A program made the position numbers and the translations under genes. A DNA stretch of 49,166 nucleotides from Nitrospirales bacterium (GTDB lineage: Bacteria > Nitrospirota > Nitrospiria > Nitrospirales > UBA8639), in contig JAJDBQ010000007.1 of assembly GCA_029261255.1 (NCBI GenBank), positions 1-49,166 on the forward strand, in the 5' to 3' direction. Positions 1,456 through 44,464 of this stretch are shown here, in pieces (position 1 is the stretch's first letter; the number at the start of each line of letters is the position of its first letter). The notes beneath the pieces are model-generated. The model saw only the letters and a program-made list of their open reading frames with translations. It was not told the origin of the DNA and searched no databases.

Positions 1456-3111
1456 TCATTGATCGGTCTCTACATTACTCAAGATTTGCTGATAATAGTG
1501 GTGAACATTCTCGCTGTGCTGACGATAGTCAGCTAGCAAACTTTCAGCAGTTTGATCGATGGTTTCCCCTCTCGGGTATCCCATTCTTATTGCACATTTG
1601 GCAAGCTCTTCTGCTTTCGAAGGAAGAAGATGCGTCTGCAGTTCATGCACCATTTGAATTTTATTTTCGAGATTTCGTAAAAAGATATAGGATGACTTAA
1701 GTTCCTTCATCACTCCAAGTTTCAATTTTCCAACTCGCACCAATCTCACTAAGCTTTTCAAAGTTTGACGATCACGGATACTAGGATATCGGTATCCCCA
1801 TCGAAGCTGAAGACCTTGGACGATAAATTCAATTTCACGTATACCGCCAATCCCGAGCTTCACATTGCGTTCGAGTTCCCCTCGACGTGTCATTTTAGAA
1901 ACCATTTGTTGTCGCAGCACATGAATCGCCGGAAACACATGAGGCGCTATTTCTCTAGTTCCATAGACAAACTTCCCTAACTTTCGGATGAACGATCGTC
2001 CAATCTGAAGATCGCCTGCAATGGGTTTGGCTTTTAAAAACGCCAAACGTTCCCATGTCCGACCGCGTGTTTGGTAATAGTGATTGGCATCTTCTACGGA
2101 ACAAGCCAAGGGCCCGACTTCGCCTTCTGGACGCAGCCGCATATCGACACGAAACAAAGCCCCTTCAGCCGTTGAAGCAGACAGGACATTGGTAAGTTCC
2201 CTTGCCAACGCATGGAAATATTCAGACCCTGCGATTGCCTTTTGCCCCTTTCCGCTGCTTGGCATGCTCTCTGGTGCTTGGTACACGTAGATTAAATCCA
2301 CATCCGAGCTATAATTTAACTCCCAGCCGCCCAGCTTTCCCATCGCCAACACAGATAACCCGATTCTGTTCTTCCCCTTGCCAGAGCCTGTGGCACTCCA
2401 ATCTCCATGCTGGCTTTTAAGTTTCTGATCGACCAATTCATATGCTGCCTGAATGACCACTGCCGCCAAATCTGACAGCACCGTGTATGTTTCAACTGGC
2501 TGGGCAATGGCAAGAAGATCACGAATCCCTAAGCGAAGCATTTCCCGTCGTTTACACCGTCGCAACGCTTCACATTTGGCCTCAAAGCTTTTCACACCTT
2601 TCTGCGTATTCTCTACTATTCCCAAAAGTGTGGACCGAGTTTGCCGCCGCACGAGCACTCGATCATCTTCGATCCAATAAACCAACAAGGGGTCTCGAAA
2701 CAGCGTCTGGGCCATCGACGGACTGTTACCAAAGACCGTACCGAGGACCTCGATAATATGCGGAGCTTTTGCCAAATATTGATAGAGCTGAAGACGGTGA
2801 ATACCCGAGTCGGCATACCGCTCCCATTCATTGAGACCCTGATCGGGGTCGGCAGTGTGCATCAGGCTTCCAAGGAGGGCAGGAAGAATCATCGCTAAAG
2901 CTTTACGCGTCGCTGGTTCCCCAGCCATCGCCTGTAGATTACGGTCAGCTTGTTGCCAATCTTGAAGCCCATAGGCTTGCAGGATACGAGTTACTTCTTT
3001 TGTGGCAAGATCCGATGCGAGCAGAAGGAGCGTGGGATCGGGCAGATGAGAACGGTTCCCCGTTTTCCTGAATGTCCCTCTTTTTTGGGTGTGTGTTGAA
3101 GAAGATTTCAT
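1456..3111 (-). CDS. GlnE-like deadenylylase (adenylyl-removing) half as a separate protein
   Basis: This 551-residue protein matches only the N-terminal half of the bifunctional GlnE enzyme, which is normally about 950 residues and removes or adds AMP on glutamine synthetase. Seen: a helical lead-in (residues 20-200), the nucleotidyltransferase core with SSDVDLIY at 268-275 (acidic pair D270 and D272), RVDMRLRPEG at 321-330 and GIGGIREIEFIVQ at 420-432. ELNYSSD and GGIREIEFIVQ are the forms found in the GlnE adenylyl-removing domain rather than the adenylylating one. The protein stops after the helical domain, with no second transferase module. That module is encoded divergently next door (3181-5439). 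The start lacks a good Shine-Dalgarno, and a TATAAT lies only about 12 bases upstream, so the mRNA may be nearly leaderless. Function is inferred from the family; activity is untested. Confidence 0.82.
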   Translation of the reverse strand: MKSSSTHTQKRGTFRKTGNRSHLPDPTLLLLASDLATKEVTRILQAYGLQDWQQADRNLQAMAGEPATRKALAMILPALLGSLMHTADPDQGLNEWERYADSGIHRLQLYQYLAKAPHIIEVLGTVFGNSPSMAQTLFRDPLLVYWIEDDRVLVRRQTRSTLLGIVENTQKGVKSFEAKCEALRRCKRREMLRLGIRDLLAIAQPVETYTVLSDLAAVVIQAAYELVDQKLKSQHGDWSATGSGKGKNRIGLSVLAMGKLGGWELNYSSDVDLIYVYQAPESMPSSGKGQKAIAGSEYFHALARELTNVLSASTAEGALFRVDMRLRPEGEVGPLACSVEDANHYYQTRGRTWERLAFLKAKPIAGDLQIGRSFIRKLGKFVYGTREIAPHVFPAIHVLRQQMVSKMTRRGELERNVKLGIGGIREIEFIVQGLQLRWGYRYPSIRDRQTLKSLVRLVRVGKLKLGVMKELKSSYIFLRNLENKIQMVHELQTHLLPSKAEELAKCAIRMGYPRGETIDQTAESLLADYRQHSENVHHYYQQILSNVETDQ

Positions 3112-3180
3112 GCAGTCTTGAAATTATACGAGACCGTACACCACCTTACAACGACATAATTTTTCAGTATACTCCAAGAT
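3112..3180. promoter_or_regulatory. Divergent, overlapping promoters between the two GlnE-half genes
   Basis: The 69-bp gap holds promoter-like motifs in both directions. On the minus strand, TATAAT (plus coordinates 3123-3128) is preceded at 17 bp by TTGTAA (3146-3151). On the plus strand, TATACT (3168-3173) is preceded at 17 bp by CTTACA (3145-3150). The two -35 boxes occupy the same bases, so polymerase could probably not bind both at once. Each -10 lies under 15 bases from its start codon, implying very short leaders. This is motif matching by eye, not a mapped promoter. Confidence 0.45.
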
Positions 3181-5439
3181 ATGACTTCTTCTGCCTTGTT
3201 CGAACAGATTCAAGCAGGTTCGACACATCTCCCTGAAAAATTGCTTCAAGACTTCTTCTCACAGATGGATTCTGACTATTTTGAACAATTTCCTCTTGAA
3301 ACCATTCTTGGGCATCTCGAGCTGACAGCCAAGCTGACGTTCGAATCTCCCTGTTCTGTCACGATCCACACTCTCCCCTCTCGACAGTATGAGATACATT
3401 TGGTGGCGTATGATTATTTCTCTGAATTTGCCACATTCTGCGGTCTGTTGGCCTCATTTGGGCTCGATATTCGAGAGGCCGCGATATTCACTTCTCGTGA
3501 AATCGTTTCTGGCTCCAAACCGAAAATAATCACTGGCAAAAAACTGAATCCATGGAAAGGCGTTCCGCTTAAGCGTCTCACAGGAGGTTTGTCGCGAAAA
3601 ATTGTGGTGGATGTGTTTCGAGTTCAAGCTCAGAAAAACTTTTCATTCGACTCATCAGCCCAACAAGCCTTTCAACAGCATCTCACATCACTGCTTCGAT
3701 TGCTGCAAAAAAATCACGTGCGCCAGGCCCGACGAGAGGTGAATCGACGGCTCATTGAACATCTTGGCGCAACGACCAAAACAACCGGAGAGATGCTCCA
3801 CCCCGTTCATATTACGTTTTCTAATCCCACATCTTCTCCAGATACGGTGTTAGATATTCGATCAACTGACACGCCAGCCTTTCTCTATGCCTTTGCCAAT
3901 GCGCTGGCTATGCGAGGCATTTACTTAGTCAAAGCTAAGATTGAAGTCAAAGACGATCAAGTGTTGAATCGGCTCTATGTCCGTGGGCGTCACGGGCGAA
4001 AAATCCAAAGCCAAACTGAACAGCAAGAGTTACGCACAGCAGCCGCACTCCTGAAAGAGTTTACGTACTATCTCAGTTGGGCGCCTGACCCTGGGAAAGC
4101 CCTTGATCATTTCGATCAATTTTTGGATCAACTGTTCGAGCAACCTCAGAAAGCGTCTGCCCTGAGCACCCTAGGACAAGCGTCCACATTGGAGCATCTC
4201 GCACAATTATTTGGAAGTAGCGACTATCTCTGGGAAGATTTGCTTCGGCGACAACATGACAATCTGTTGCCCATGATGCGTCAGTATCAAAAGGGTCCCC
4301 TCGTTCGCTCCAAAGCCCTTCTCAGTAAAACCATTGCTACACGGTTGAAAGAGGCCAAGACGATTCCTCAGAAAAAGCAGCAACTGAACCAATTTAAGGA
4401 TGAAGAACTCTTCAGAATTGACATGCGTCATCTGTTGGAAACCAGCTCTCTTCCCGATTTTTCCCACGCTCTCACAAATTTAGCTGATGTGATTGTCGAT
4501 CAAGCCCTCGAGCAATCATATATGGCGATACGACCAAAATCCTCAAAAACGCCAACACCTTCGATGGCTATTTTTGGATTAGGAAAATTAGGTGGAGGCG
4601 AATTGGGTTATGCGTCGGATATTGAGATTCTTTTTGTCTATGCCAATCCACAACCAACGAAATCACATCAAACATCCAAGATCACCACTGATTTCTATGA
4701 ACGATGGGCACAAGAATTTCTTCAATGGATCGAAGCAAAACAAGAAGGCATTTTTCATATCGACACCCGACTCCGTCCCAATGGTGACAAAGGCACATTG
4801 ACAAATTCTTTGGAAGAAATTGAGCAGTATTATCACATTCCAGGAAAGGCAGCCCCGTTTGAAAGACAGGCTTTCATTAAGCTTCGTTTTATTGCGGGGG
4901 ATCGTGCGTTAAGCAAAGCCGTTGAGGTCCATCGCAATCGATTTGTCTATGGAATGGACACTTGGGATTTGCCAACTGCGCTGCATCTTCGACAGCGACA
5001 ATTGACTGAGTTAATCCAGCCAGGTACGACCCATGTGAAATACGGCCAGGGAGGGTTGCTGGATGTGGAATACATGGTGCAATACCTTCAGCTCATTCAT
5101 GGACATGAATACCCATCGCTTCGAACACCCAATACTCTAGAAGCCATCGAAGAATTGTGCCATGCCTCTGTCCTCTCCCTATCAGAAAGGCAAGCCTTGC
5201 ACGATGATTATCTCTTTCTACGCCAATTGATCGATGCGCTACGCATCGTGCGAGGCAATGCCAAGGACTTGGTTCTACCGCCATCAGGATCAGACGAAAT
5301 GGTGTTTCTCGCTCGAAGATTAGGAATGGGGTCCACAGATTGGCAGAAAAGCGCTCAAGCCTTTGAGCAAACCACCCATGCACGAATGGCAAAAATTCAT
5401 GAACGTTTTCTGAAGCGTTTTTCAAAAAAGAAAGCCTGA
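3181..5439 (+). CDS. GlnE-like adenylylating half fused to two N-terminal GlnD-type ACT domains
   Basis: This 752-residue protein has an unusual order. Residues ~68-148 and ~221-275 look like the two ACT domains at the end of GlnD, which bind glutamine: VVDVFRV closes the first, and VLDIRSTDTPAFLYAFANAL opens the second. A helical linker follows. Residues ~330-740 match the C-terminal, adenylylating half of GlnE: GLGKLGGGELGYASDIE at 466-482, IDTRLRPNGDKG at 527-538 and GQGGLLDVEYMVQYLQL at 622-638. The usual D-x-D metal pair is D480-x-E482 here. No GlnD HD or uridylyltransferase domain is present. The partner deadenylylase half is divergent, and glnA is convergent downstream with its target tyrosine intact. 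I infer a split adenylylation system with a built-in glutamine sensor. An inactive, purely regulatory transferase is the alternative. Confidence 0.8.
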   Translation: MTSSALFEQIQAGSTHLPEKLLQDFFSQMDSDYFEQFPLETILGHLELTAKLTFESPCSVTIHTLPSRQYEIHLVAYDYFSEFATFCGLLASFGLDIREAAIFTSREIVSGSKPKIITGKKLNPWKGVPLKRLTGGLSRKIVVDVFRVQAQKNFSFDSSAQQAFQQHLTSLLRLLQKNHVRQARREVNRRLIEHLGATTKTTGEMLHPVHITFSNPTSSPDTVLDIRSTDTPAFLYAFANALAMRGIYLVKAKIEVKDDQVLNRLYVRGRHGRKIQSQTEQQELRTAAALLKEFTYYLSWAPDPGKALDHFDQFLDQLFEQPQKASALSTLGQASTLEHLAQLFGSSDYLWEDLLRRQHDNLLPMMRQYQKGPLVRSKALLSKTIATRLKEAKTIPQKKQQLNQFKDEELFRIDMRHLLETSSLPDFSHALTNLADVIVDQALEQSYMAIRPKSSKTPTPSMAIFGLGKLGGGELGYASDIEILFVYANPQPTKSHQTSKITTDFYERWAQEFLQWIEAKQEGIFHIDTRLRPNGDKGTLTNSLEEIEQYYHIPGKAAPFERQAFIKLRFIAGDRALSKAVEVHRNRFVYGMDTWDLPTALHLRQRQLTELIQPGTTHVKYGQGGLLDVEYMVQYLQLIHGHEYPSLRTPNTLEAIEELCHASVLSLSERQALHDDYLFLRQLIDALRIVRGNAKDLVLPPSGSDEMVFLARRLGMGSTDWQKSAQAFEQTTHARMAKIHERFLKRFSKKKA

Positions 5440-5516: not shown

Positions 5517-6926
5517 CTACACATCGTAATACATGAAAAATTCATGCGGATGGGGTCTGAGTCGCATCGGATCTACTTCGTTATCTCGTTTATAGGAAAT
5601 CCAGGCCTCGACTAAATCTTCTGTAAAGACTCCGCCTTTCAGAAGGAATTCATAGTCATTGGCCAGGTTGTCTAACGCTTCCTCTAAGCTCGACGGCAAT
5701 GTTTGAATATTACCTAATTCTTCAGGTTCCAAATCATACAGGTTTTTGTCCATCGCTTCGCCTGGATCGATTTTATTTTGGATGCCATCCAATCCCGCCA
5801 TCAACATGGCGCTGAAAGCCAGATACATATTGCACGACGGATCGGGGAATCGTACTTCAATTCGTTTCGCTTTCGGGCTGGGTGAATACATGGGAATCCG
5901 AATGCCTGCCGATCGATTACGGCTAGAATAGGCAAGCATCACGGGAGCTTCGAATCCTGGCACGAGTCGCTTATACGAATTCGTTGTGGGATTAGTCAAC
6001 GCCGCCAAGGCTGGCCCATGCTTTAATATCCCGCCAATGTAATAGAGGCACTGCTGTGAGACACCAGCGTAATCTTTGCCTGCAAAGTTGGGCTTCCCAC
6101 CTTTCCAAATACTTTGATGCGTATGCATGCCCGTGCCGTTGTCGCCAAATACTGGTTTCGGCATAAATGTGGCGGTTTTCCCATGACGTCGAGCCACATT
6201 ACGAACGATGTATTTATACATCATCATTTGATCAGCCATTTTCACCAACGTATCGAAACGAAGATCGATTTCGGCTTGTCCCCCCGTGGCGACTTCATGA
6301 TGATGCTTTTCAACATGAATTCCCACTTTTTCCATTTCGCGGCACATTTCAGATCGAATATCTTGTTGCGAATCGACCGGGGCTACGGGAAAGTACCCTT
6401 CCTTATGCCGAGGACGGGAACCGAGGTTTTCCCCATCTTTTCCTGAATTCCAAATGCCTTCTTCCGAATCCACAAAGTAATACCCAGAGTGACCATTTTG
6501 ATCAAAGCTCACATGATCAAAAATGAAAAATTCAGCCTCTGGACCCCAGTAGGAGACATCACCGATTTTGGTACTCTTCAGATATTGCTCAGCTCGCATC
6601 GCGACACCACGAGGATCGCGTTCATAGATGGTGCGAGTAATGGGATCTTGAACATTCCCGATCATGCTCATGGTGGGGATTTCCGTAAATGGATCCATCC
6701 GACAAGTATTGGGATCTGGCACGAGCAACATATCGCTATTTTCAATGGCCTTCCATCCACGAATGGATGATCCATCGAACCCGGAGCCTTCTTTAAATAA
6801 ATCCAAGGATAATTCTGAGGTAGGAATTGAAAAATGCTGCCATGTTCCAACCAAGTCGATAAATTTAAGATCGACCATTTCAACTTTATGCTTCTTGGCA
6901 AAATCCAACACTTCTTTCGGGGTCAT
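5517..6926 (-). CDS. glnA: Glutamine synthetase, type I (GSI-beta)
   Basis: Makes glutamine from glutamate, ammonia and ATP as a cytoplasmic dodecamer. At 469 residues it has the normal GSI length. Seen: the [12 protein letters not shown] segment near residue 50, the [10 protein letters not shown] metal/ATP region, NRSAGIRIP, and a complete adenylylation loop NLYDLEPEE with Tyr397 (codon 5736-5738). The intact tyrosine means the enzyme can be controlled by GlnE-type adenylylation, which matters because a split GlnE is encoded opposite. The start is supported by AAGGAGG about 7 bases upstream. It follows amtB by 83 bp on the same strand, consistent with a glnK-amtB-glnA transcription unit. No glutamine riboswitch or sigma-54 site was recognised in the leader. 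Confidence 0.97.
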
Positions 6927-8367: not shown

Positions 8368-8727
<360 letters not shown>

Positions 8728-25630: not shown

Positions 25631-28399
25631 TTATATAGCCTGATCCACTTCGCGCAAGACCAGTTGGGCTGTTTCACGAACACCAGAATCATGGTCCTCA
25701 TTACACCCACGTACCAAATTCAGCAGTTCTTCAGTCTGGAATTCTGATACGGTGAAAATTGCGCATGTCCTGAGCCAAGAGTCGCGACCGCTTAATAGCA
25801 TCTTGATCGCTTCTCCTCGTTTTTCAATCCGTATCCCAAACAACTCCTGGCCAGCTTGCATCGTCTGTTCTTGAGAGACACCATCCACGATTGGAAGGAG
25901 ATATCGCTTTGAATCTTTTCTCAGGACACTATCCAGAAATTCAATAGCACTTGCACGCATAGTCTTCTGAGGGCTGACAAAAGCAGCATAGGCGCTAAAC
26001 ATATCCTTAGGGGGATACAACAGACCCAATAATCTAAACATCAATTCTATATTCTGGGTCATCTTTTCTTGCAAGGCTTTCTTCAATAGATCGGTTCCTG
26101 GACCTTCGTGAATCTCTCGATATAGGTGAAGAATGTGAAGGTACTCGTAATAAGACTGCGTTTCTTCAATCAACCACGTATCTACTTGATGTTGATCGAA
26201 TTGCAGATCAGGGTGATACGCACGGAGCTTATTCAAGGCCTTCATCACATGATATCTCAAGAGAGGATCGAGTTCTTCTCGACTTCGCATCAGCACATTC
26301 ACCGAATCTTGGGATGGAATCGCGGAAAACACCCTTGGGATATTCATACGAACGGAGAGATCCACGGTCTCGTCCGTCAGATTATCGTAGAGTGTGCCAA
26401 GAATGTTCGGATTAAAGGACGTCAACGATTGGCGAGCATCAGCACGGTATTGAGTACTGGCGAGCTTTCCTACTAACCATGTGATGAACTGCCGATCTCG
26501 AATACGTCCTGCACTGCGAATGACCTCTTTCACGACAAGAGGAGACGCATCTTCCCTGTGTTCAAGTAGAAAGTGACAAAAGGCTGGCTCATGAAGGCTC
26601 CCCAGTGCATTCAAGACCTGTGCTCGAATAACCTCCGCGTTCTCTCCGTTCCAGACGAGCAATCGCTCAATGAACTCACTGCTAATCAATCCTTGCTGCT
26701 CGAATGAACCCGATTCCGCAATAGATTGAACGGCTGCTGCTTGCACCCTCAAATCTGAGTGATTCAGATATTCTTGAACTCGCGCAAGATTGAGCCCTTT
26801 GTCCCTTTCCAACAGAAGCGAGACGGCTTCGCGCCTCACCTCCGAGTCACTATCAACAATAAGCCGTTCAATTTCTGATGTTAACGAACTAGGGTCTTGG
26901 GCTTTAAGCAGTCGCACGGCTTTTTGACGAACTTCGCTCGATGTATGTCGCAATAATGGCTGAACGGCTTGAACAAGGTCGACATGCTCCACTGACACAA
27001 GCAAATCCAAAGCATGAACCAACAGGCGTTCATTAGAACTATTGAGTGCAGCCACCAGCGTCTGAACCGTAGCCGCCTCAGTGATGTCCATTTTTAATTC
27101 ATTGGGATCAATATCTCTTCGTTCGAGAGCTTTCCTGAATGCACTCACATATTCCTTACGAACGGCAAACACCAAAAACACCCACATGATAAGCAAGGGT
27201 AGAGCCACGAAACTAATTTGCCTGACAGAGAGTTCGAGGATCATGGTAAACAGCAATAACAGTCCCCCACCCAGCCCCCGAAATAGTCTATCTAAAAACA
27301 TATCGATGAAGACTTTGATTCGCTTTTTTACCGCTAAAGGCAGCGGCAGATAGAGGAGCTCCCCAGCAGTTTTATCGATTGAATATCGAAAACTGCCTTC
27401 AGCCCCACGCAAGAGAACACCCATCCACAGGCCAGGCATCATCACCATCCCAATTGATCCAAGGAGTAAGCCGGCTGGAAGAAAACCTATTGCGCCACCA
27501 ACCCCAAACATCCGCAAAATTCGATAGGTGAAAAACGATTGAATGACAAGGGATACCACGCTCAGACGGCTATAGAATGTTCCGAGGAAAGCCGTGAGAT
27601 CCTCTTTTTCTGGAAAGGCTTCAACTGATACCGTTTTGAATTGAAAATCAACAAAGGTGGCCAAGACCATTCCTATAGAGAGAATCCCGACCATATACGT
27701 CAATTGCTTCGAGTCGCGAATCGTGCCAATCATATTTCCAAACGTCTCTGAGGCTGGATCTTCTTGAGGAACACGAGGCTTGAGAACGCCCTCCTCTTTT
27801 TTCTTGAGCATCGCAATCGCATTGAGAAACAAGAGGCAACAGCCTAGCAACCCCATACAGACGTACAGCAGATTCTCCGTTTGAACTCCAAGGTGCCGAA
27901 TAATAAGACTGGTCACCTCCCCTCCTGTCATGGCCCCAAGAATTCCCCCTAGATTGAGAAACCAAAAGACTCGCTTGGCTTGAGCTGCATCGAAAAGAGT
28001 ATTGGCTAAAAGCCAAAACTGCGTCGTGCCTAAAACCGCGTAAATACTGACCCAAATATAGAGAACAAAAAAGACCCATGCCTGATCTAATTGGATCAGC
28101 CATCGAAGAAGGAGGAGATTACCGATGAGCACAGCGATCGTGACGTTCATGACCTGAGTCAATGAAAACGAGCGGGCAGATCGAGAATAAAAGGTTGTGA
28201 TGGGTGCGACGACGAGCGCAATCAAAATAAAGACTAAGGGCAGTTGCTCTGGCCCGAGGCTAACCAGAAAGAGACTGTCCCTCACAGGTTTAAGGAAATA
28301 ATAGGTGATAAGAATCAGGTAATAGTAGGCAAACATAAAGGTGACAAGGAGGCCTTCACCTTTGCGAATATCTACGACGGATGAAAGAAGACGTGGCAT
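25631..28399 (-). CDS. ATP/ADP-translocase-like MFS transporter fused to HEAT repeats
   Basis: A 922-residue membrane protein. Residues ~15-415 hold about 12 hydrophobic helices resembling the nucleotide (Npt/NTT) branch of the major facilitator superfamily, including LKPVRDSLFLVSLG near residue 37 and TTQFWLLANTLFDAAQAKR. Residues ~435-920 are repeated amphipathic helix pairs typical of HEAT repeats (SEVRQKAVRLL, SEVRREAVSLL, LRVQAAAVQSI, SGVRETAQLVL), probably cytoplasmic. Such fusions occur in free-living bacteria, where ATP import is unlikely, so the substrate is open. It is convergent with the receiver gene. The cNMP-domain protein nearby is of a type sometimes found with these transporters (my recollection, not checked). 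Confidence 0.82.
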   Translation of the reverse strand: MPRLLSSVVDIRKGEGLLVTFMFAYYYLILITYYFLKPVRDSLFLVSLGPEQLPLVFILIALVVAPITTFYSRSARSFSLTQVMNVTIAVLIGNLLLLRWLIQLDQAWVFFVLYIWVSIYAVLGTTQFWLLANTLFDAAQAKRVFWFLNLGGILGAMTGGEVTSLIIRHLGVQTENLLYVCMGLLGCCLLFLNAIAMLKKKEEGVLKPRVPQEDPASETFGNMIGTIRDSKQLTYMVGILSIGMVLATFVDFQFKTVSVEAFPEKEDLTAFLGTFYSRLSVVSLVIQSFFTYRILRMFGVGGAIGFLPAGLLLGSIGMVMMPGLWMGVLLRGAEGSFRYSIDKTAGELLYLPLPLAVKKRIKVFIDMFLDRLFRGLGGGLLLLFTMILELSVRQISFVALPLLIMWVFLVFAVRKEYVSAFRKALERRDIDPNELKMDITEAATVQTLVAALNSSNERLLVHALDLLVSVEHVDLVQAVQPLLRHTSSEVRQKAVRLLKAQDPSSLTSEIERLIVDSDSEVRREAVSLLLERDKGLNLARVQEYLNHSDLRVQAAAVQSIAESGSFEQQGLISSEFIERLLVWNGENAEVIRAQVLNALGSLHEPAFCHFLLEHREDASPLVVKEVIRSAGRIRDRQFITWLVGKLASTQYRADARQSLTSFNPNILGTLYDNLTDETVDLSVRMNIPRVFSAIPSQDSVNVLMRSREELDPLLRYHVMKALNKLRAYHPDLQFDQHQVDTWLIEETQSYYEYLHILHLYREIHEGPGTDLLKKALQEKMTQNIELMFRLLGLLYPPKDMFSAYAAFVSPQKTMRASAIEFLDSVLRKDSKRYLLPIVDGVSQEQTMQAGQELFGIRIEKRGEAIKMLLSGRDSWLRTCAIFTVSEFQTEELLNLVRGCNEDHDSGVRETAQLVLREVDQAI

Positions 28400-28960: not shown

Positions 28961-29146
28961 ATGAAAGCATCTAATCTCTTTGTTCGATCCTTAGAACAAA
29001 AAAGTGGTGGATATATTTTGGGTGTCCCTGGGGAGGAAAATCTCGACTTCCTAGAATATTTGAAAGGGTCAAAGATTAGGCTCATGCTCATTCGTCATGA
29101 TCAGAATAAAATAGGAGATTTCGAATGCCCGAACGCAATGAATTAA
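28961..29146 (+). pseudogene. 5' remnant of an acetolactate synthase large-subunit-like gene
   Basis: Opens with a good Shine-Dalgarno (GGAGGG) and an ATG. It encodes the start of a thiamine-pyrophosphate enzyme of the acetolactate synthase type: MKASNLFVRSLEQ, GGYILGVPGEENLDFLEYL and SKIRLMLIRHDQ. The match stops after codon 48 (29104), and the frame then runs into the gdhA leader and ends after 61 residues, inside gdhA. More than 90% of the gene is missing, so it cannot be an enzyme. The break lies about 10 bases before the gdhA Shine-Dalgarno, pointing to a deletion that joined the two genes. It may now act as a short upstream frame coupled to gdhA. Confidence 0.75.
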
Positions 29147-30474
29147 CGTTAGAACATTTCATGTCGGGATTAAAACGCAGAAATCCTGGTGAAACGGAAT
29201 TTCATCAAGCGGTTGAGGAAGTGGCCACCTATCTCATTCCCCACATCATGAAGTTCCCCAAATACCATTCTGCTCAAATATTAGAGCGAATGACCGAACC
29301 AGACCGTATCATTATTTTTCGGGTATGCTGGGAAGACGATCAAGGGAATGTCCGAGTCAATCGTGGATACCGTGTACAATTCAATAATGCGATTGGGCCT
29401 TATAAGGGTGGCCTGAGATTTCATCCGTCCGTCAATTTAAGCATTCTCAAATTTTTAGGCTTTGAGCAAATTTTCAAAAATAGCCTGACCACACTTCCCA
29501 TCGGCGCAGGTAAAGGTGGAGCAGACTTCAACCCTAAGGGAAAATCAGATGCGGAAGTGATGCGCTTCTGCCAAGCATTTATGACCGAGCTGTCTAAACA
29601 TATCGGAGAAAATATTGATGTGCCTGCAGGCGATATTGGAGTAGGTGCACGAGAAATAAGTTTTATGTTTGGACAATACAAACGACTCAAAAATGAGTTC
29701 ACCGGAACCTTAACCGGCAAAGGCCTGGAGTTCGGAGGAAGCAAGATTCGGAAGGAAGCCACGGGCTTTGGGTGTATTTATTTTATGCAAGAAATGCTGA
29801 AACACCAGTCTGACGAACTACAAGGAAAATCCTGCGCGATTTCGGGGTCAGGGAATGTGGCGCAATATGCAGCATTGAAACTCATCCAATTGGGAGCCAA
29901 AGTGATCACGATGTCTGACTCTTCAGGATTCGTTCATGATCCCGATGGCATTAATGAAGAGAAACTCGATTTCATCATAGATCTCAAGACCGTCAAACGA
30001 CAATCGCTTGCTGAATATGCCAAACATTACAAGCTTGCTTTCCACAAAGATCAACGACCGTGGTCAGTCCCCTGCCAATTAGCCTTTCCATGCGCAACGC
30101 AGAATGAACTGAACGAACAAGAGGCCAAAGCTTTACTACAAAAAGGATTTATAGGAGTAGCAGAGGGAGCCAATATGCCCACTACGATTGGAGCGATCCA
30201 AGCTTTTCAAAACGCGAAAGTTCTTTTCGCACCAGGGAAAGCCTCGAATGCCGGTGGGGTTGCGGTCTCGGGTCTAGAAATGACTCAAAACAGCATCCGG
30301 ATGTCATGGTCAAATGAAGAATTAGAAAAACGCCTACGCGATATCATGACCGACATTCATCAAAAATGCGTCGACCACGGATCAGAGAACGGATATATTG
30401 ATTATGTCAAAGGCGCGAATGTTGCCGGTTTTACCAAAGTTGCTGACGCCATGCTAGCCTATGGAGTCATGTAA
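29125..30474 (+). CDS. gdhA: Glutamate dehydrogenase, hexameric (NADP-type)
   Basis: Converts 2-oxoglutarate and ammonia to glutamate (reversible). At 449 residues it equals the bacterial hexameric class (about 447). Seen: GPYKGGLRFHPSVN (K94), GAGKGGADFNPKGKSD (catalytic K130), DVPAGDIGVGAREI (D170), the Rossmann loop SGSGNVAQYAA near 245, and EGANMPTT. AGGAG precedes the ATG. Preference for NADPH is inferred from similarity to GdhA. Its upstream region carries the 5' remnant of an acetolactate synthase gene, whose frame overlaps the first 22 bases of gdhA. Provides a low-affinity route for ammonia assimilation beside the GS route at 5517. Confidence 0.96.
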   Translation: MPERNELTLEHFMSGLKRRNPGETEFHQAVEEVATYLIPHIMKFPKYHSAQILERMTEPDRIIIFRVCWEDDQGNVRVNRGYRVQFNNAIGPYKGGLRFHPSVNLSILKFLGFEQIFKNSLTTLPIGAGKGGADFNPKGKSDAEVMRFCQAFMTELSKHIGENIDVPAGDIGVGAREISFMFGQYKRLKNEFTGTLTGKGLEFGGSKIRKEATGFGCIYFMQEMLKHQSDELQGKSCAISGSGNVAQYAALKLIQLGAKVITMSDSSGFVHDPDGINEEKLDFIIDLKTVKRQSLAEYAKHYKLAFHKDQRPWSVPCQLAFPCATQNELNEQEAKALLQKGFIGVAEGANMPTTIGAIQAFQNAKVLFAPGKASNAGGVAVSGLEMTQNSIRMSWSNEELEKRLRDIMTDIHQKCVDHGSENGYIDYVKGANVAGFTKVADAMLAYGVM

Positions 30475-39274: not shown

Positions 39275-40679
39275 TCATTGAATTTTCTGAAGGCTGAGAA
39301 AACACCAGCTCCACTAACGTTTCCAGATGTGCCGTCTGAGGAAACATATCAAATGGTTGCATTCGTCGAATTTCATAGCCCTTCTCACACAACGATTTGA
39401 TATCCCTAGCTAACGAGGGTGCATCACAAGAAATATATAGCAATTTCGGTACGTGTAAGGCTCCCAGTTGTTCAATAATTTTAGAATTGAGCCCCGTACG
39501 TGGAGGATCTAGGAGAATAACATCGTAGGCCCCGGATTGCACCGTCATCAGATACGATTCAACTGAACTAATTTTCACGCGACACCCAACGATCTTGTTG
39601 ACGCGTAACGACTCACGAGCATCCTGAATAGCCGTAGGATTACCTTCAACACAGGTCACCAGCGCCCCCTGACTCGCCAGGGTTAAACCTAATGCTCCTG
39701 TACCCGCATACAATTCCAAAATCCGCAGACCTTTCGAGGCCCCTACCCATTCTCCTACAGTCTTACCTAGTAATTGGAAGAGGACCCAGTTCGCCTGCAT
39801 AAATGCGCGATAGCCCATTTTGAGACGCAATGCTCCGAATGTTTCCCATACATGATCCGCACCCCTCACGATCGGCTCCTGCTTGTTGCGTCTCCTCGAA
39901 TCGCGTTCGGATGGATCCACTCGTTCGTAGATCCACCCTTTGATGTTAGGTATCTCAGCACAGGCATTCATGAGACGCTCCACATGCTCCTTGGTCTTGG
40001 CTCGACCACGGAAGACTAAGAGCCCTCCCTCATCCAATTGCGACCAACGAATTTCGACACTTTCTAAATTCATGCCCGGCATAGCCAGACGGCGAAGTCC
40101 ATTTCGGATCGCATCTATCACTGTTCGAAATTTCTCATCGACCAGAAAACATGTCTCAACTCGTAGGAGGTGTTGAGTGCCTGCTTCAAAAAATCCCAGA
40201 AACACTCCGTCACTCCCCGACCCGATGCCCAAACGAAGGACTTGGCGATAGCCATAAGGTTTAGGAGAAGGGACAACTCGAGAAACCTGAAGCTCTGACA
40301 CCTTGCCAATACGACGGAGGGTATCTTCAAGAATCAATCGTTTTTGAGAGAGTTGTTCTTCATACTCAATATGCTGCAGCTGACACCCTCCACATTGTCC
40401 GACTAAGGGGCAGACAGGAATCACGCGGCCTTCAGCCGGATCTTGGACCTTGAGAATTTTTCCTTCTGTCACGCCTTTTCGTCGACGGAGAATTTCAACT
40501 TCAGTGGTTTCACCAGGAAGACCTCCTTCACACAGCACGACGTGGCCATCCACACGACTGAGGCTAAATCCACCAGCCACCAATTTTTCAATATGGAGAA
40601 GGTGAGTGGATCCGGGAGAGGGTGATTCAGTGGCTACACTAGTTTTTCGAGATTTAATGTTCTGGTCGGAGTTCGACAT
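39255..40679 (-). CDS. rlmD: 23S rRNA (uracil-C5)-methyltransferase, RlmD/TrmA family
   Basis: Methylates a uracil of 23S rRNA (U1939 by family). Order: TRAM domain (~residues 28-85), the Fe-S cysteine cluster CPLVGQCGGCQLQH, a central RNA-binding part, and the SAM domain with ELYAGTGALGLTLASQG, LLDPPRTGLN and the catalytic cysteine in YISCDAPSLARD. I start at the ATG at 40679, because the longer frame (to 40718) begins with TTG inside ntrX. It overlaps the ntrX 3' end by 26 bp. The last six codons (KDTSKN) and the stop TAG come from the inverted end of a palindromic repeat. Orthologue choice between RlmD and RlmCD is not certain. Confidence 0.93.
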   Translation of the reverse strand: MSNSDQNIKSRKTSVATESPSPGSTHLLHIEKLVAGGFSLSRVDGHVVLCEGGLPGETTEVEILRRRKGVTEGKILKVQDPAEGRVIPVCPLVGQCGGCQLQHIEYEEQLSQKRLILEDTLRRIGKVSELQVSRVVPSPKPYGYRQVLRLGIGSGSDGVFLGFFEAGTQHLLRVETCFLVDEKFRTVIDAIRNGLRRLAMPGMNLESVEIRWSQLDEGGLLVFRGRAKTKEHVERLMNACAEIPNIKGWIYERVDPSERDSRRRNKQEPIVRGADHVWETFGALRLKMGYRAFMQANWVLFQLLGKTVGEWVGASKGLRILELYAGTGALGLTLASQGALVTCVEGNPTAIQDARESLRVNKIVGCRVKISSVESYLMTVQSGAYDVILLDPPRTGLNSKIIEQLGALHVPKLLYISCDAPSLARDIKSLCEKGYEIRRMQPFDMFPQTAHLETLVELVFSQPSENSMKDTSKN

Positions 40680-42027
40680 TGAGGAGCTTAATCTTTCGGT
40701 GTAAATGACTACGTTCAATTTTTAATTCATCCGCTGTTTTGGACACATTCCAATTATTTTCTCTGAGCTTTTGCGAAATGACTTCCCGCTCAAACACATT
40801 CCTGGCTTCCCGCAGGGAATCATAATTCGTCCCGACCGATAATGATGGAACACCGCTTGGAGCGCGAACCTGTAAAAACATTTCAACATCTGGGCCATCA
40901 ATGACAGGCTTCGGGACCATAATCAATAACCGTTCGATCAGGTTACGGAGCTCACGGATATTCCCTGGCCAATCATGATGTTGTAAGGCTTCAAGACCAT
41001 GTACATTGAACTCTTTAGGCTTCATGCCCTGTTCCTCAGAATGCATTTTGAGAAAATGCTGGGCGAGCTCAGGAATATCATCTCGGCGTTCTTTCAATGT
41101 GGGCACGACGATGGGCAACACATTAAGTCGATAGTAGAGATCTTCCCGGAAATTGCCTTTCCCGATCTCCTCGGATAAATCCTTATTCGAGGCGGCAATC
41201 ACTCGCACCTGAACATTCAAGAGCTTTGTCCCACCCACCCTCGTAAACTGCTGCTCTTGCAACACGCGCAAGACTTTCGCTTGCGTGGCTAAACTCATAT
41301 CGCCAATTTCATCCAAAAATAAGGTGCCGCCATCTGCCAATTCAAATTTCCCGCGTTTCATCGCGGTCGCCCCACTAAACGCGCCCTTTTCATGCCCAAA
41401 CAATTCACTTTCAATCAGCGTTTCTGGAATCGCGGCGCAATTGATCTCAACAAACGGTTTGTTATGGCGAGGGCTTTGTAAGTGGATCGCACGAGCAACC
41501 AATTCTTTTCCTGTACCGTTCGCGCCAGAAATTAAGACACGACTATTGGCCGGTGCGGCCATTTCAATCATGGAGCGAAGCCGATTCATGATTGAAGACG
41601 AACCCACAAGTTCAAATCGTCGTTCAACTTGAATTCTGAGATTGAGATTTTCTTCTTCTAGCTTTCTTTGGTGCAGGGCATTCCGCACCAAGATCGTCAC
41701 TTTCTCCAAATCCAGTGGCTTTTCTAAATAGTCATATGCACCTAACTTCGTGGCTTTCACCGCTGTTTCAATTGAACCATGCCCAGACATCATCACAACA
41801 AGAATGCCCGGGAACTGCGATCGCAACCTCTTCAATGTTTCCAGACCATCCATTTCAGGCATCCAAATATCAAGGATTACAAGATCTGGAGCATCGCTGC
41901 GGACGAGTTTCATCCCTTCAAGTCCATTGGTCGCAGTGATGACCTGGTATCCTTCATCTTCCAAAATACTACTCAATGAGTTCAAAATGGCTGGTTCATC
42001 ATCGACAATGCAAATAGTTTCTGCCAC
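40654..42027 (-). CDS. ntrX: Sigma-54-dependent response regulator, NtrX type
   Basis: A three-domain activator. Receiver at ~1-115 with acidic pair (IVDDE) and phospho-acceptor D53 (LVILDIWMPEMDG), AAA+ domain with Walker A GANGTGKE (~168-175), GAFSGA (216-221) that contacts sigma-54, and a FIS-type helix-turn-helix at the C-terminus (NVSKTADELKIERSHLHRK). I choose the GTG at 42027 over an upstream ATG at 42063 because GGAGGGGG lies a few bases before it and the receiver starts there. It follows the NtrY kinase gene by ~100 bp. Targets probably include nitrogen genes; no sigma-54 promoter was recognised in this window. Confidence 0.93.
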   Translation of the reverse strand: MAETICIVDDEPAILNSLSSILEDEGYQVITATNGLEGMKLVRSDAPDLVILDIWMPEMDGLETLKRLRSQFPGILVVMMSGHGSIETAVKATKLGAYDYLEKPLDLEKVTILVRNALHQRKLEEENLNLRIQVERRFELVGSSSIMNRLRSMIEMAAPANSRVLISGANGTGKELVARAIHLQSPRHNKPFVEINCAAIPETLIESELFGHEKGAFSGATAMKRGKFELADGGTLFLDEIGDMSLATQAKVLRVLQEQQFTRVGGTKLLNVQVRVIAASNKDLSEEIGKGNFREDLYYRLNVLPIVVPTLKERRDDIPELAQHFLKMHSEEQGMKPKEFNVHGLEALQHHDWPGNIRELRNLIERLLIMVPKPVIDGPDVEMFLQVRAPSGVPSLSVGTNYDSLREARNVFEREVISQKLRENNWNVSKTADELKIERSHLHRKIKLLNVELRPEH

Positions 42028-42130
42028 TAGACCCCCTCCATCAAGGATGTGAATGTTGTCCACTCATACGCACAGACCGATTCGACTCACGCCCAACACC
42101 CGACCATTCAGCCATAAACAATCGCGTGTC

Positions 42131-44464
42131 TCACAATGGTAAGTCGAACCGCAATACCGCACCCTTTGGATGATTATTTTCCGCATGGATGGTTCCATTG
42201 TGATCAGTAATAATTCGATGCACAATAGCCAATCCTAATCCTGTGCCCGTTCGCTTCTTTGAAAAATAGGGCACAAACAATTTCTCTTGGTCTTCCGCTT
42301 GTATCCCACTACCATCATCAGCCACTCGCACAATCGCGCGATTTCGTCGCCAGTCGGCCTCCGTCGTCACCCACACATGACCTTGATCATTGCTCGCTTG
42401 AATCGCGTTATCAAATAGATTCACAAACACACGCCGCATCTGCTCACGGTCGCAATTCAGATCAGGTAATGCCTCATCAAGCTGTAAGACAAACTCCACA
42501 TCGCGATGGGCACTCGTGTACAGGGAAATCACTTTTTGAATGATATCATGAAGTGACTCTTTCGACATCTTGGGTAAAGGCATACGTGCATATTTCGAAA
42601 ATTCATCGACCATGCCCTTTAAACTCGTGACTTCATTAATAATGACGCCGGTTGCTTGATCAAAAATCTCTTCGAAATCAGATGATTTCTCAAAGAACTT
42701 TTTCCGCAATCGCTGCGCAGATAATTGTATCGGAGTCAACGGGTTTTTGATTTCATGAGCAATGCGCTGCGCGACCTCCTGCCAAGCCGCCGTTTTCTGC
42801 GCCTTAATGAAATCTGTTCGATCTTCAAAAACAAACACAAACCCTAAATCTTCGCCTGCTTCATTTTGCATTCTGGAAATACTCAGACCTAAGGTCAAGA
42901 GTCGTCCGTTGGGTGTCTCCATCTGCCCTTCCATCGATAAACTATCCGTTTGTTCGACGAGCATTTGGTCATAGGCCTTCTGAAACAAGGACAAATTAAA
43001 TTGTTTAAAGGCTTCATACACTGGGCTTCCACGTAATTCATCGCCTTTGACCCCGAGAATGCGCTCGCCAGATGGGTTGAACCTCGTCACTAGTCCCGCC
43101 ATGTCAATAGACAGCACGCCAGCCGCAATCGTTTCTACCACCGCTTCCGTATACGCACGTCGTTGATCAATTTCGACATTCGATTGGATGAGTGACATGT
43201 TCATTTCTTCTAAACGAGATTTATTGGTGCGCAAATCAGTGGTCATGCGATTAAATGATTGCACTAATGTCCCGATTTCATCAGTCGCTTTCACATCAAT
43301 GTGAATATCTAAGTTGCCTTTGGCAATCGCCTCCGTCCCTTCAGCCAGACGTTGAATCGGGACAGTAATACCTCGAGCCACATAAAACCCAAACCACGTT
43401 GCGCCAAACAGAATCAGTAAGGTCACCACCGCAACAAAAAGATAGGCCCCCCCCTTAATGGGGTTTTTCATGGACTTAATCTGACTATATTCTTCAAATT
43501 GCTTAGCAATGGCATCCATTTTCCGTAACAACGATTCCGGCACATAGGAAGACACGACCACCACACCTTTCACTTGGTCAGTATTTCCGCTTCCCATGAT
43601 TGGAGCTGCCGCACGAATCAATCGACCCACTGGAGCTTCTTGCGCTGAGGCCTGAGCTTTCGCTCTATCTAACACTTGCAAGACTAATTGCCCGACCGGA
43701 AGACTCAGAACGGTATCAGAGAGCTTCGGATCCATCATTCGCGCTAAGGTTTCCATTTTCGGCGAAAAGACTTCGACCCCAGCCAAATGAAATTCATGCT
43801 GCATTCTGGCCAGCATGGACTTCAATAATTCCCGGTGTTCAGGCTTCAAGATATCTTCGCGAAAAATTTCTTTACTGATCACCCGAGCCGTATCCGCGGC
43901 TAAGACTTCGCGATCTTTTTGATACAAATGGGCGACATCTTCTGAATCTCGCAACACATGCATGACCTGGTCACTAAACCAAACATCAATCACTTCACTA
44001 ATCACCCCACTGGCGACCAACGCCAACAGGACGGTCGGAATCAACGCAAACCCAATAAAGGCTGCAACGAGTTTTGACCGAAACCCTTTTCCGACTAAAC
44101 GATTGCGTTTTTCAAAAAAAGCTCTGATTAAATTCCTGGAGAGCAAGAGTGTTAAGGCCACCAGACCCACGCCGTCCAGGTACACCAAAAACAGCACAAG
44201 CGCATAACTCGGGCTTGGCAGAATCGAATCCGGCAAGAGAGGACCAGAGAGCCCATACCGTGCGTAATAGATCGTCAACGCCAAGCACGGCAGTAGCAAG
44301 ACCAACACAATCCAGACCGGGGTATAGTGACGACGACGACGTTTGAGGGCCGCTTCGCTTGCATTTGACTGCGATGAGGATGACGACTCAGATGGAGACG
44401 CCGTGCGGGGATATTTTCGGGAGTCCGGTAGATGTTCAGAGATCAGGTTCACGGGGCTTGGCAT
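42131..44464 (-). CDS. ntrY: Membrane histidine kinase, NtrY type
   Basis: A 777-residue sensor kinase. Membrane segments: ~48-70, ~85-110, ~132-155 and ~345-365, with a periplasmic sensor part between the last two. HAMP at ~365-420 (VPIQRLAEGTEAIAKGNLDIHI), PAS at ~440-545, HisKA with the phospho-acceptor H570 (RIAHEIKNPLTPIQLS), and HATPase (NLFDNAIQAS, DDGSGI, GTGLGLAIV). This order matches NtrY, and the cognate NtrX is directly downstream. A long Ser-rich cytoplasmic N-terminus precedes the first helix, and no strong Shine-Dalgarno supports the exact start. Confidence 0.92.
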   Translation of the reverse strand: MPSPVNLISEHLPDSRKYPRTASPSESSSSSQSNASEAALKRRRRHYTPVWIVLVLLLPCLALTIYYARYGLSGPLLPDSILPSPSYALVLFLVYLDGVGLVALTLLLSRNLIRAFFEKRNRLVGKGFRSKLVAAFIGFALIPTVLLALVASGVISEVIDVWFSDQVMHVLRDSEDVAHLYQKDREVLAADTARVISKEIFREDILKPEHRELLKSMLARMQHEFHLAGVEVFSPKMETLARMMDPKLSDTVLSLPVGQLVLQVLDRAKAQASAQEAPVGRLIRAAAPIMGSGNTDQVKGVVVVSSYVPESLLRKMDAIAKQFEEYSQIKSMKNPIKGGAYLFVAVVTLLILFGATWFGFYVARGITVPIQRLAEGTEAIAKGNLDIHIDVKATDEIGTLVQSFNRMTTDLRTNKSRLEEMNMSLIQSNVEIDQRRAYTEAVVETIAAGVLSIDMAGLVTRFNPSGERILGVKGDELRGSPVYEAFKQFNLSLFQKAYDQMLVEQTDSLSMEGQMETPNGRLLTLGLSISRMQNEAGEDLGFVFVFEDRTDFIKAQKTAAWQEVAQRIAHEIKNPLTPIQLSAQRLRKKFFEKSSDFEEIFDQATGVIINEVTSLKGMVDEFSKYARMPLPKMSKESLHDIIQKVISLYTSAHRDVEFVLQLDEALPDLNCDREQMRRVFVNLFDNAIQASNDQGHVWVTTEADWRRNRAIVRVADDGSGIQAEDQEKLFVPYFSKKRTGTGLGLAIVHRIITDHNGTIHAENNHPKGAVLRFDLPL

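Follow-up and report, generated by a model that had tools for sequence, protein, structure and literature searches.

The adenylylation of glutamine synthetase (GS) is governed by a two-tier circuit, in which GlnD reads glutamine and the uridylylated PII protein (PII-UMP) relays the signal. Whether such a circuit can be shortened is the question raised by a stretch of 49,166 nucleotides (contig JAJDBQ010000007.1 of assembly GCA_029261255.1, our contig C208; in the following the window) from a bacterium for which Nitrospirales and Nitrospiria are used as order and class, and whose genome comprises 4.36 Mb in 251 contigs at 88% completeness. Two adjacent genes on opposite strands of the window encode proteins, here P1 and P2, that resemble the two halves of GlnE, and P2 carries in front of its catalytic part a module related to the sensor of GlnD. 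We regard it as rather probable that P1 and P2 form a split GS adenylylation switch, in which P2 would sense a ligand reporting nitrogen status, most likely glutamine, directly. In this class, which includes Nitrospira, the GlnD sensor would have been joined to the half that transfers AMP, its opponent having become a separate protein, and one lineage does without GlnD. The pair would represent a natural experiment in the rewiring of a cascade to a shorter circuit among relatives of major nitrifiers, with the prediction that GS adenylylation here answers to glutamine without a uridylyltransferase.

In the open-licence full-text literature, judged by titles and the beginnings of abstracts and with subscription papers and preprints outside its range, no paper on a split GlnE, on a fusion of ACT domains with GlnE or on a loss of glnD was found, in agreement with an earlier reading of the letters alone (the sequence-only reading), which knew of no description of this layout. 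Streamlined Nitrospira from the Great Lakes were reported to be without glnE, in accessible text that does not mention a split (PMC9239080), so presence and absence of glnE in Nitrospira have already been noted in print. In a review on comammox Nitrospira, GlnD, GlnB, GlnA and NadE appear in the legend of a figure, section 6 of that review being silent on presence or absence (PMC6311188, accessible part).

A split GlnE with a GlnD-type sensor module

Both open reading frames proposed in the sequence-only reading were present, and each encodes the two GlnE domains PF03710 and PF08335, with E-values of 4e-62 and 3.5e-24 in P1 and of 5e-42 (residues 338-581) and 2.9e-15 (residues 618-743) in P2, all above the curated cut-offs of the Pfam search. 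The proposal that the GlnE halves are separate genes held as well: a PF03710 search of the 88%-complete window genome yielded no protein besides these two, hence no other GlnE, and neither P1 nor P2 reached the NCBIfam equivalog cut-offs for whole GlnE. An assembly or frameshift artefact was rejected, as P1 and P2 adjoin on opposite strands in all 53 near-full-length loci with both genes (50 distinct).

Deciding which half is which required comparison with fused GlnE, including that of E. coli (PDB 1v4a for the N half, 3k7d for the C half). P1 scored 181 bits against the N-terminal, deadenylylase-type half (AR) and 133 bits against the C-terminal, adenylylating half (AT), and P2 with 106 and 103 bits against 1v4a and 3k7d in phmmer was ambiguous. 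Reference GlnEs came from 32 loci of other Nitrospirota classes, E. coli and plasmids, 24 of which entered a tree of 96 rows together with P1 and P2 from the window and 23 further loci; Halomonas GlnE, whose frame is broken, was excluded from tree and profiles. P1 formed one group (support 100/99), as did P2 (100/100), and P1 joined, on a branch short of full support (93/83), the N halves other than that of Nonomuraea, whose two halves came together apart from the N halves and were excluded from the half-specific profiles. Since phmmer and tree were both ambiguous for P2, these profiles, for which 23 N and 23 C halves of fused GlnEs were taken, were used along with signature columns. All 24 P1 rows preferred the N profile (mean +72 bits) and all 24 P2 rows the C profile (mean +33 bits), while leave-one-out controls assigned fused halves correctly in 46/46 cases; the columns separating N from C halves, only three in number, agreed with the profiles. 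A swap of the halves, with P2 as AR, was rejected on the strength of both. In E. coli GlnE the N half deadenylylates and the C half adenylylates (PMC12409994, accessible part), and with this profile assignment P1 is, by sequence, a deadenylylase-type and P2 an adenylylating-type half, as had been proposed; corresponding functions in the cell would be expected. As to whether the split is older than the GlnE fusion, forcing P1 among the fused N halves of the phylum gave a borderline result with long branches (p-AU 0.044).

The pair has in common with GlnE both PF03710 + PF08335 catalytic halves, the conserved carboxylates and a GlnA with Tyr397. However, GlnE is one chain of about 950 residues, whereas here AR and AT are unlinked in two opposite-strand genes, and GlnE has D-x-D in both halves, whereas P2 has D-x-E and the sensor module in front.

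That the adenylylating half bears two GlnD-type ACT domains was likewise borne out, Pfam giving only a sub-threshold match to ACT_ACR9 in this region (E 0.025). NCBIfam models of GlnD had their best stretches at P2 residues 19-287 (E 5e-20) and 141-287 (E 9e-23), far under the cut-offs for whole GlnD. Profile-profile comparison of 51 P2 N-termini (58 rows minus seven duplicate loci) against 11 GlnDs from within the order reached 99.3% probability (E 1.5e-20) at GlnD model positions 681-920, an alignment that spans the whole C-terminal module of GlnD, linker helices included. The predicted structure of P2 1-330 (mean pLDDT 74.7, pTM 0.75) has two beta-alpha-beta-beta-alpha units at 58-176 and 206-300; statements on the fold rest on this model, because the full-length one is of low quality in its catalytic part (mean pLDDT 53). 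Five solved entries matched it with E <0.001, all of large mycobacterial glutamate dehydrogenase. The 180-kDa enzyme (7jsr, 9hv0), as the closest solved fold (E 9e-6, probability 1.0), differs from P2 in being another enzyme with about 13% identity, and we take its matched region to be ACT-like. Plant ACT-like domains followed (probability 0.95-1.0, E 0.035-0.17), and microcompartment shell proteins also matched at lower probability.

An HD domain was not matched in P2 by Pfam, and its catalytic domain is of GlnE type. Structure matches and sequence evidence taken together, P2 is to be seen as a chimera of GlnD and GlnE rather than as carrying a stray ACT domain, its N-terminus being, on sequence comparison, homologous to the whole C-terminal sensor of GlnD with linker and two ACT domains (P2 1-330). 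GlnD itself differs in having uridylyltransferase (UTase) and HD domains, whereas in P2 the sensor is N-terminal, the ligand-loop motif is changed and the catalytic domain belongs to GlnE. The ACT pair of GlnD is regarded as a glutamine sensor (accessible text of PMC3173338), and homology to it supports the inference that P2 senses glutamine directly. Plant ACR proteins such as ACR11, for which an action on GS has been proposed, also have an ACT pair of GlnD type (PMC3173338, PMC12702975, each in its accessible part) and differ from P2 in being without a GlnE-type enzyme; acr11 mutants had normal GS activity in a 2025 study (PMC12702975).

Distribution of the pair and loss of glnD

Searches with P2 covered Nitrospirota genomes, plasmid records and one pattern scan of GTDB species for close relatives. 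At E 1e-55, a P2 match was obtained in 164 of 379 Nitrospirota genomes (at least 90% complete, plus that of the window), all 164 belonging to the class of the window, and split and fusion are shared by relatives; at least 20 genomes of the class were without a match, besides 195 further non-matching genomes, which makes the denominator for the class inexact. When 245 genomes of the phylum were searched with PF03710, the frames among the matches listed measured 534-755 aa in this class, whereas in other classes lengths of 930-1,110 aa prevailed and two domains per frame were frequent. An ACT profile matched none of the 32 fused-GlnE loci; two fused GlnEs with long open frames (1306 and 1311 aa) had been considered as ACT fusions, but their extensions gave no ACT match. 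The pair, read beforehand as divergent, is so in the window and in 49 of the 53 loci; in the remaining four (L136, L137, L138, L140), which represent other orders of the class, the two genes converge tail to tail, so that a shared divergent promoter is not universal.

The sequence-only reading also suggested that PII uridylylation might be bypassed and that a full-length glnE and glnD elsewhere in the genome would weaken its case. For the window genome the bypass does not hold: no other glnE was found, but a full-length GlnD is encoded on another contig (702.7 bits, over the cut-off, with PF08335, HD and ACT matches), and the PII protein of the window keeps Tyr51. In a survey of 217 genomes of the class, with at most four candidates scored per genome, GlnD was over the cut-off in 152. 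Genomes in which no match reached GlnD strength are concentrated in g12, a group at genus level, of whose 65 genomes 49 have a match at most about as strong as that of the ACT part of P2; outside g12, genomes below the cut-off mostly had partial matches, and in five (G038, G050, G201, G286, G288) nothing reached GlnD strength.

When 22 of these 49 genomes, single-contig ones included, were searched again with a GlnD from g12 itself, all 22 gave weak ACT matches or none, and full GlnD was found in all six controls, which dismisses a search artefact as the cause of the absence. To the check whether relatives lack glnD, which the sequence-only reading had asked for, the answer is yes for the retested g12 genomes and no for most of the class. 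A GlnD-bearing locus has the order nadE-x-amt-glnB-glnD-glnA, compared with nadE-glnB-glnA in all six glnD-less loci, one of which has a 445-aa transposase-like open reading frame, recognised by eye, between nadE and glnB. In a tree of P1 and P2 the ten sampled glnD-less rows make up a single clade (100/100), a pattern compatible with glnD having been lost once; of the three rows from g12 genomes with glnD, one falls in with another genus.

The pair outlasted this loss. Of the g12 genomes examined for both, 40 of 41 without glnD and 11 of 12 with it have retained P2, and in the glnD-less clade the catalytic residues of P2 are intact. Median dN/dS there is 0.048 for ACT2, 0.098 for the whole ACT module, 0.057 for the AT half and 0.132 for P1, values that indicate constraint and not its exact size, because synonymous sites approach saturation (dS about 1) and the pairs compared are non-independent. 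For this Nitrospirales clade it is well possible, if short of probable, that the P1/P2 switch works without PII uridylylation, in which case the glutamine sensor of GlnD would have moved onto the AMP-transferring enzyme, control by glutamine would take a single step, and GlnD would have become dispensable and been lost. It is here that the proposed independence of uridylylation is plausible.

As for PII itself, Tyr51 is kept in all 25 proteins read, one per genome. Within g12, one to eight PF00543 (PII-like) matches per genome were counted in 20 genomes searched, with several extra ones in G043, G051, G165, G219, G335 and others. The reverse of the glnD-less state was seen in G230 and G179, two genomes of the window's order (99% complete) with GlnD and no P2 match. 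G179, which is small (1.8 Mb), possibly belongs to the streamlined type for which absence of glnE was reported (PMC9239080, accessible part).

A possible control circuit and its alternatives

At nitrogen excess the ACT module of P2 would bind its ligand, probably glutamine, and AMP transfer to Tyr397 of GlnA would rise, while P1 would strip AMP from GlnA by phosphorolysis. The sensor module, ahead of the AT half, would occupy the place that the AR half holds in fused GlnE. In genomes that keep GlnD, the window's included, input from PII and PII-UMP would probably be layered on top; in the glnD-less clade the ACT module and ligand-bound, unmodified PII would carry all control, and P1 would be switched without PII-UMP. 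Because loss of GlnD removes the maker of the classical activator of deadenylylation, control there would fall to the ACT module, to unmodified PII or to the two together. Whereas identities, homology, conservation and the loss of glnD are established by sequence, catalysis, ligand and direction of control we infer.

Several observations weigh against direct glutamine sensing by such a switch. The window's own genome has retained GlnD, and PII Tyr51 persists even in 13/13 glnD-less genomes (e.g. L200, L201), which is unexpected if uridylylation was lost. The glycine of the beta1-alpha1 loop, nearly invariant at the ACT ligand site (PMC3173338, accessible part), is absent from ACT1 of P2 (DYFSEF), and in ACT2 the position is held by Ala in 47/51 rows and by Gly in 4/51, so that the ligand may differ or fail to bind; conservation of ACT1 is, moreover, below that of ACT2 and of the AT half. 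GlnD and Tyr51 in the window genome, GlnD over the cut-off in most of the class, the lost loop glycine and the Tyr51 kept without GlnD speak for an ordinary PII-driven adenylylation of GS in two pieces, in which PII, and PII-UMP wherever GlnD exists, would go on deciding and the ACT module would dock, dimerise or bind some other ligand, with no direct control by glutamine. We hold this for unlikely, yet to be taken seriously: in the glnD-less clade, without GlnD-made PII-UMP, both halves and the module are nevertheless under purifying selection. The replacement loops are themselves strongly conserved (D78, F234 and L235 in 51/51), from which the ligand site appears remodelled rather than decayed.

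The catalytic competence of P2 bears on the proposed switch in the same way. D-x-D and the third Asp of P1 are kept in 57/57 rows (54 distinct; 59 filtered rows minus two fused GlnEs, L118 and L150), and fused C halves have D-x-D in 24/24. P2 departs from this with D-x-E, and also has N403 (51/51), K/R520 (45 and 6), F560 (49/51) and Y631 (51/51) at positions conserved in fused GlnE. Exchange of Asp and Glu at the second carboxylate is known in this fold. The accessible parts of PMC6361787 and PMC11646218 did not confirm it. From the altered residues one could argue that P2 is an AT relative with little or no catalytic activity, whose ACT module regulates P1 or GlnA non-covalently while P1 does all the chemistry. 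This is improbable, given that D480, E482 and D528 are invariant (51/51), that other conserved positions are fixed as well, and that median dN/dS of the AT half is 0.057 and 0.102 in two sets, i.e., under purifying selection. Of the two options left by the sequence-only reading for D-x-E, tuned or inactive, the former is favoured, since the changes are fixed and all three carboxylates kept, and an inactive P2 is unlikely on these alignments.

The tree contributes a further difficulty, since P2 stands on a long branch (1.36 changes per column) between N and C sets and is not placed with the C halves by the tree alone. Branch length and altered catalytic positions would also suit an enzyme that adenylylates or otherwise nucleotidylates another protein, for instance PII, with GlnA not as its main target. 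Still less credence is given to this, because P2 adjoins P1 in 53/53 loci and lies beside glnA in the window, and GlnA keeps Tyr397 (40/40 rows, 37 distinct; in the window at position 397, intact as first read). The neighbourhood part of this argument is weak, as glnA lies away from the pair in many relatives. The split switch with a direct sensor in P2 remains our preferred explanation.

The locus and its neighbouring genes

The features of the locus are collected in Table 1. Following P2, the order of genes is glnA on the minus strand, an amt-type gene, the PII gene and a second amt-type gene, likewise on the minus strand.

Table 1. Features of the P1/P2 locus, with positions in the window.
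Feature	Position	Strand	Basis
P1, separate GlnE half of N-terminal type (AR, deadenylylase-type), 551 aa	1456..3111	-	PF03710 + PF08335
P1 metal pair D270-x-D272, aligned with E. coli GlnE D173/D175	2296..2304	-	alignment, 24/24; 57/57 P1 rows (54 distinct)
P1 third carboxylate D323	2143..2145	-	57/57 P1 rows (54 distinct)
P1-P2 intergenic gap, 69 bp	3112..3180	.	between head-to-head open reading frames
P2, GlnD-type sensor module + GlnE half of C-terminal type (AT, adenylylating), 752 aa	3181..5439	+	profile matches
P2 residues 20-300, homologue of the C-terminal GlnD module: linker helices, ACT1, ACT2	3238..4080	+	profiles, model
P2 ACT1, residues 58-176; conserved DYFSEF in place of RPG-type ligand-loop motif	3352..3708	+	alignment, model
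P2 ACT2, residues 206-300; loop D-T-P-A/G-F-L	3796..4080	+	A233 in 47/51, G in 4/51
P2 AT half, residues 331-745: PF03710 nucleotidyltransferase + PF08335 helical domain	4171..5415	+	profile matches
P2 metal pair D480-x-E482, aligned with E. coli GlnE D701/D703	4618..4626	+	51/51 each
P2 third carboxylate D528	4762..4764	+	51/51
glnA, glutamine synthetase of type I bearing Tyr397; P1 and P2 presumably act on it	5517..6926	-	profile matches, alignment
GlnA Tyr397 codon	5736..5738	-	alignment
PII protein (glnK/glnB type), T-loop Tyr51, flanked by two amt-type genes	8368..8706	-	profile matches, alignment

Presumably, the promoters of both P1 and P2 lie within the gap between them. A sigma-54 type promoter pattern, with up to four mismatches allowed, had no match in this gap; one match with three mismatches between P2 and glnA and five with four mismatches upstream of the PII gene were uninformative.

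Further along the window, an NtrX/NtrY-like pair at 40654-44464 (minus strand), in which a histidine kinase matching NtrY_N accompanies a response regulator of sigma-54 type, is possibly a nitrogen-related two-component system. A gene of the Glu/Leu/Phe/Val dehydrogenase family at 29125-30474 (plus strand) probably encodes a glutamate dehydrogenase and possibly provides a second route of ammonium assimilation. At 25631-28399 (minus strand) a protein of 922 aa is encoded, unexpected in a relative of free-living nitrifiers, in which a TLC-type ATP/ADP translocase domain is followed by HEAT repeats.

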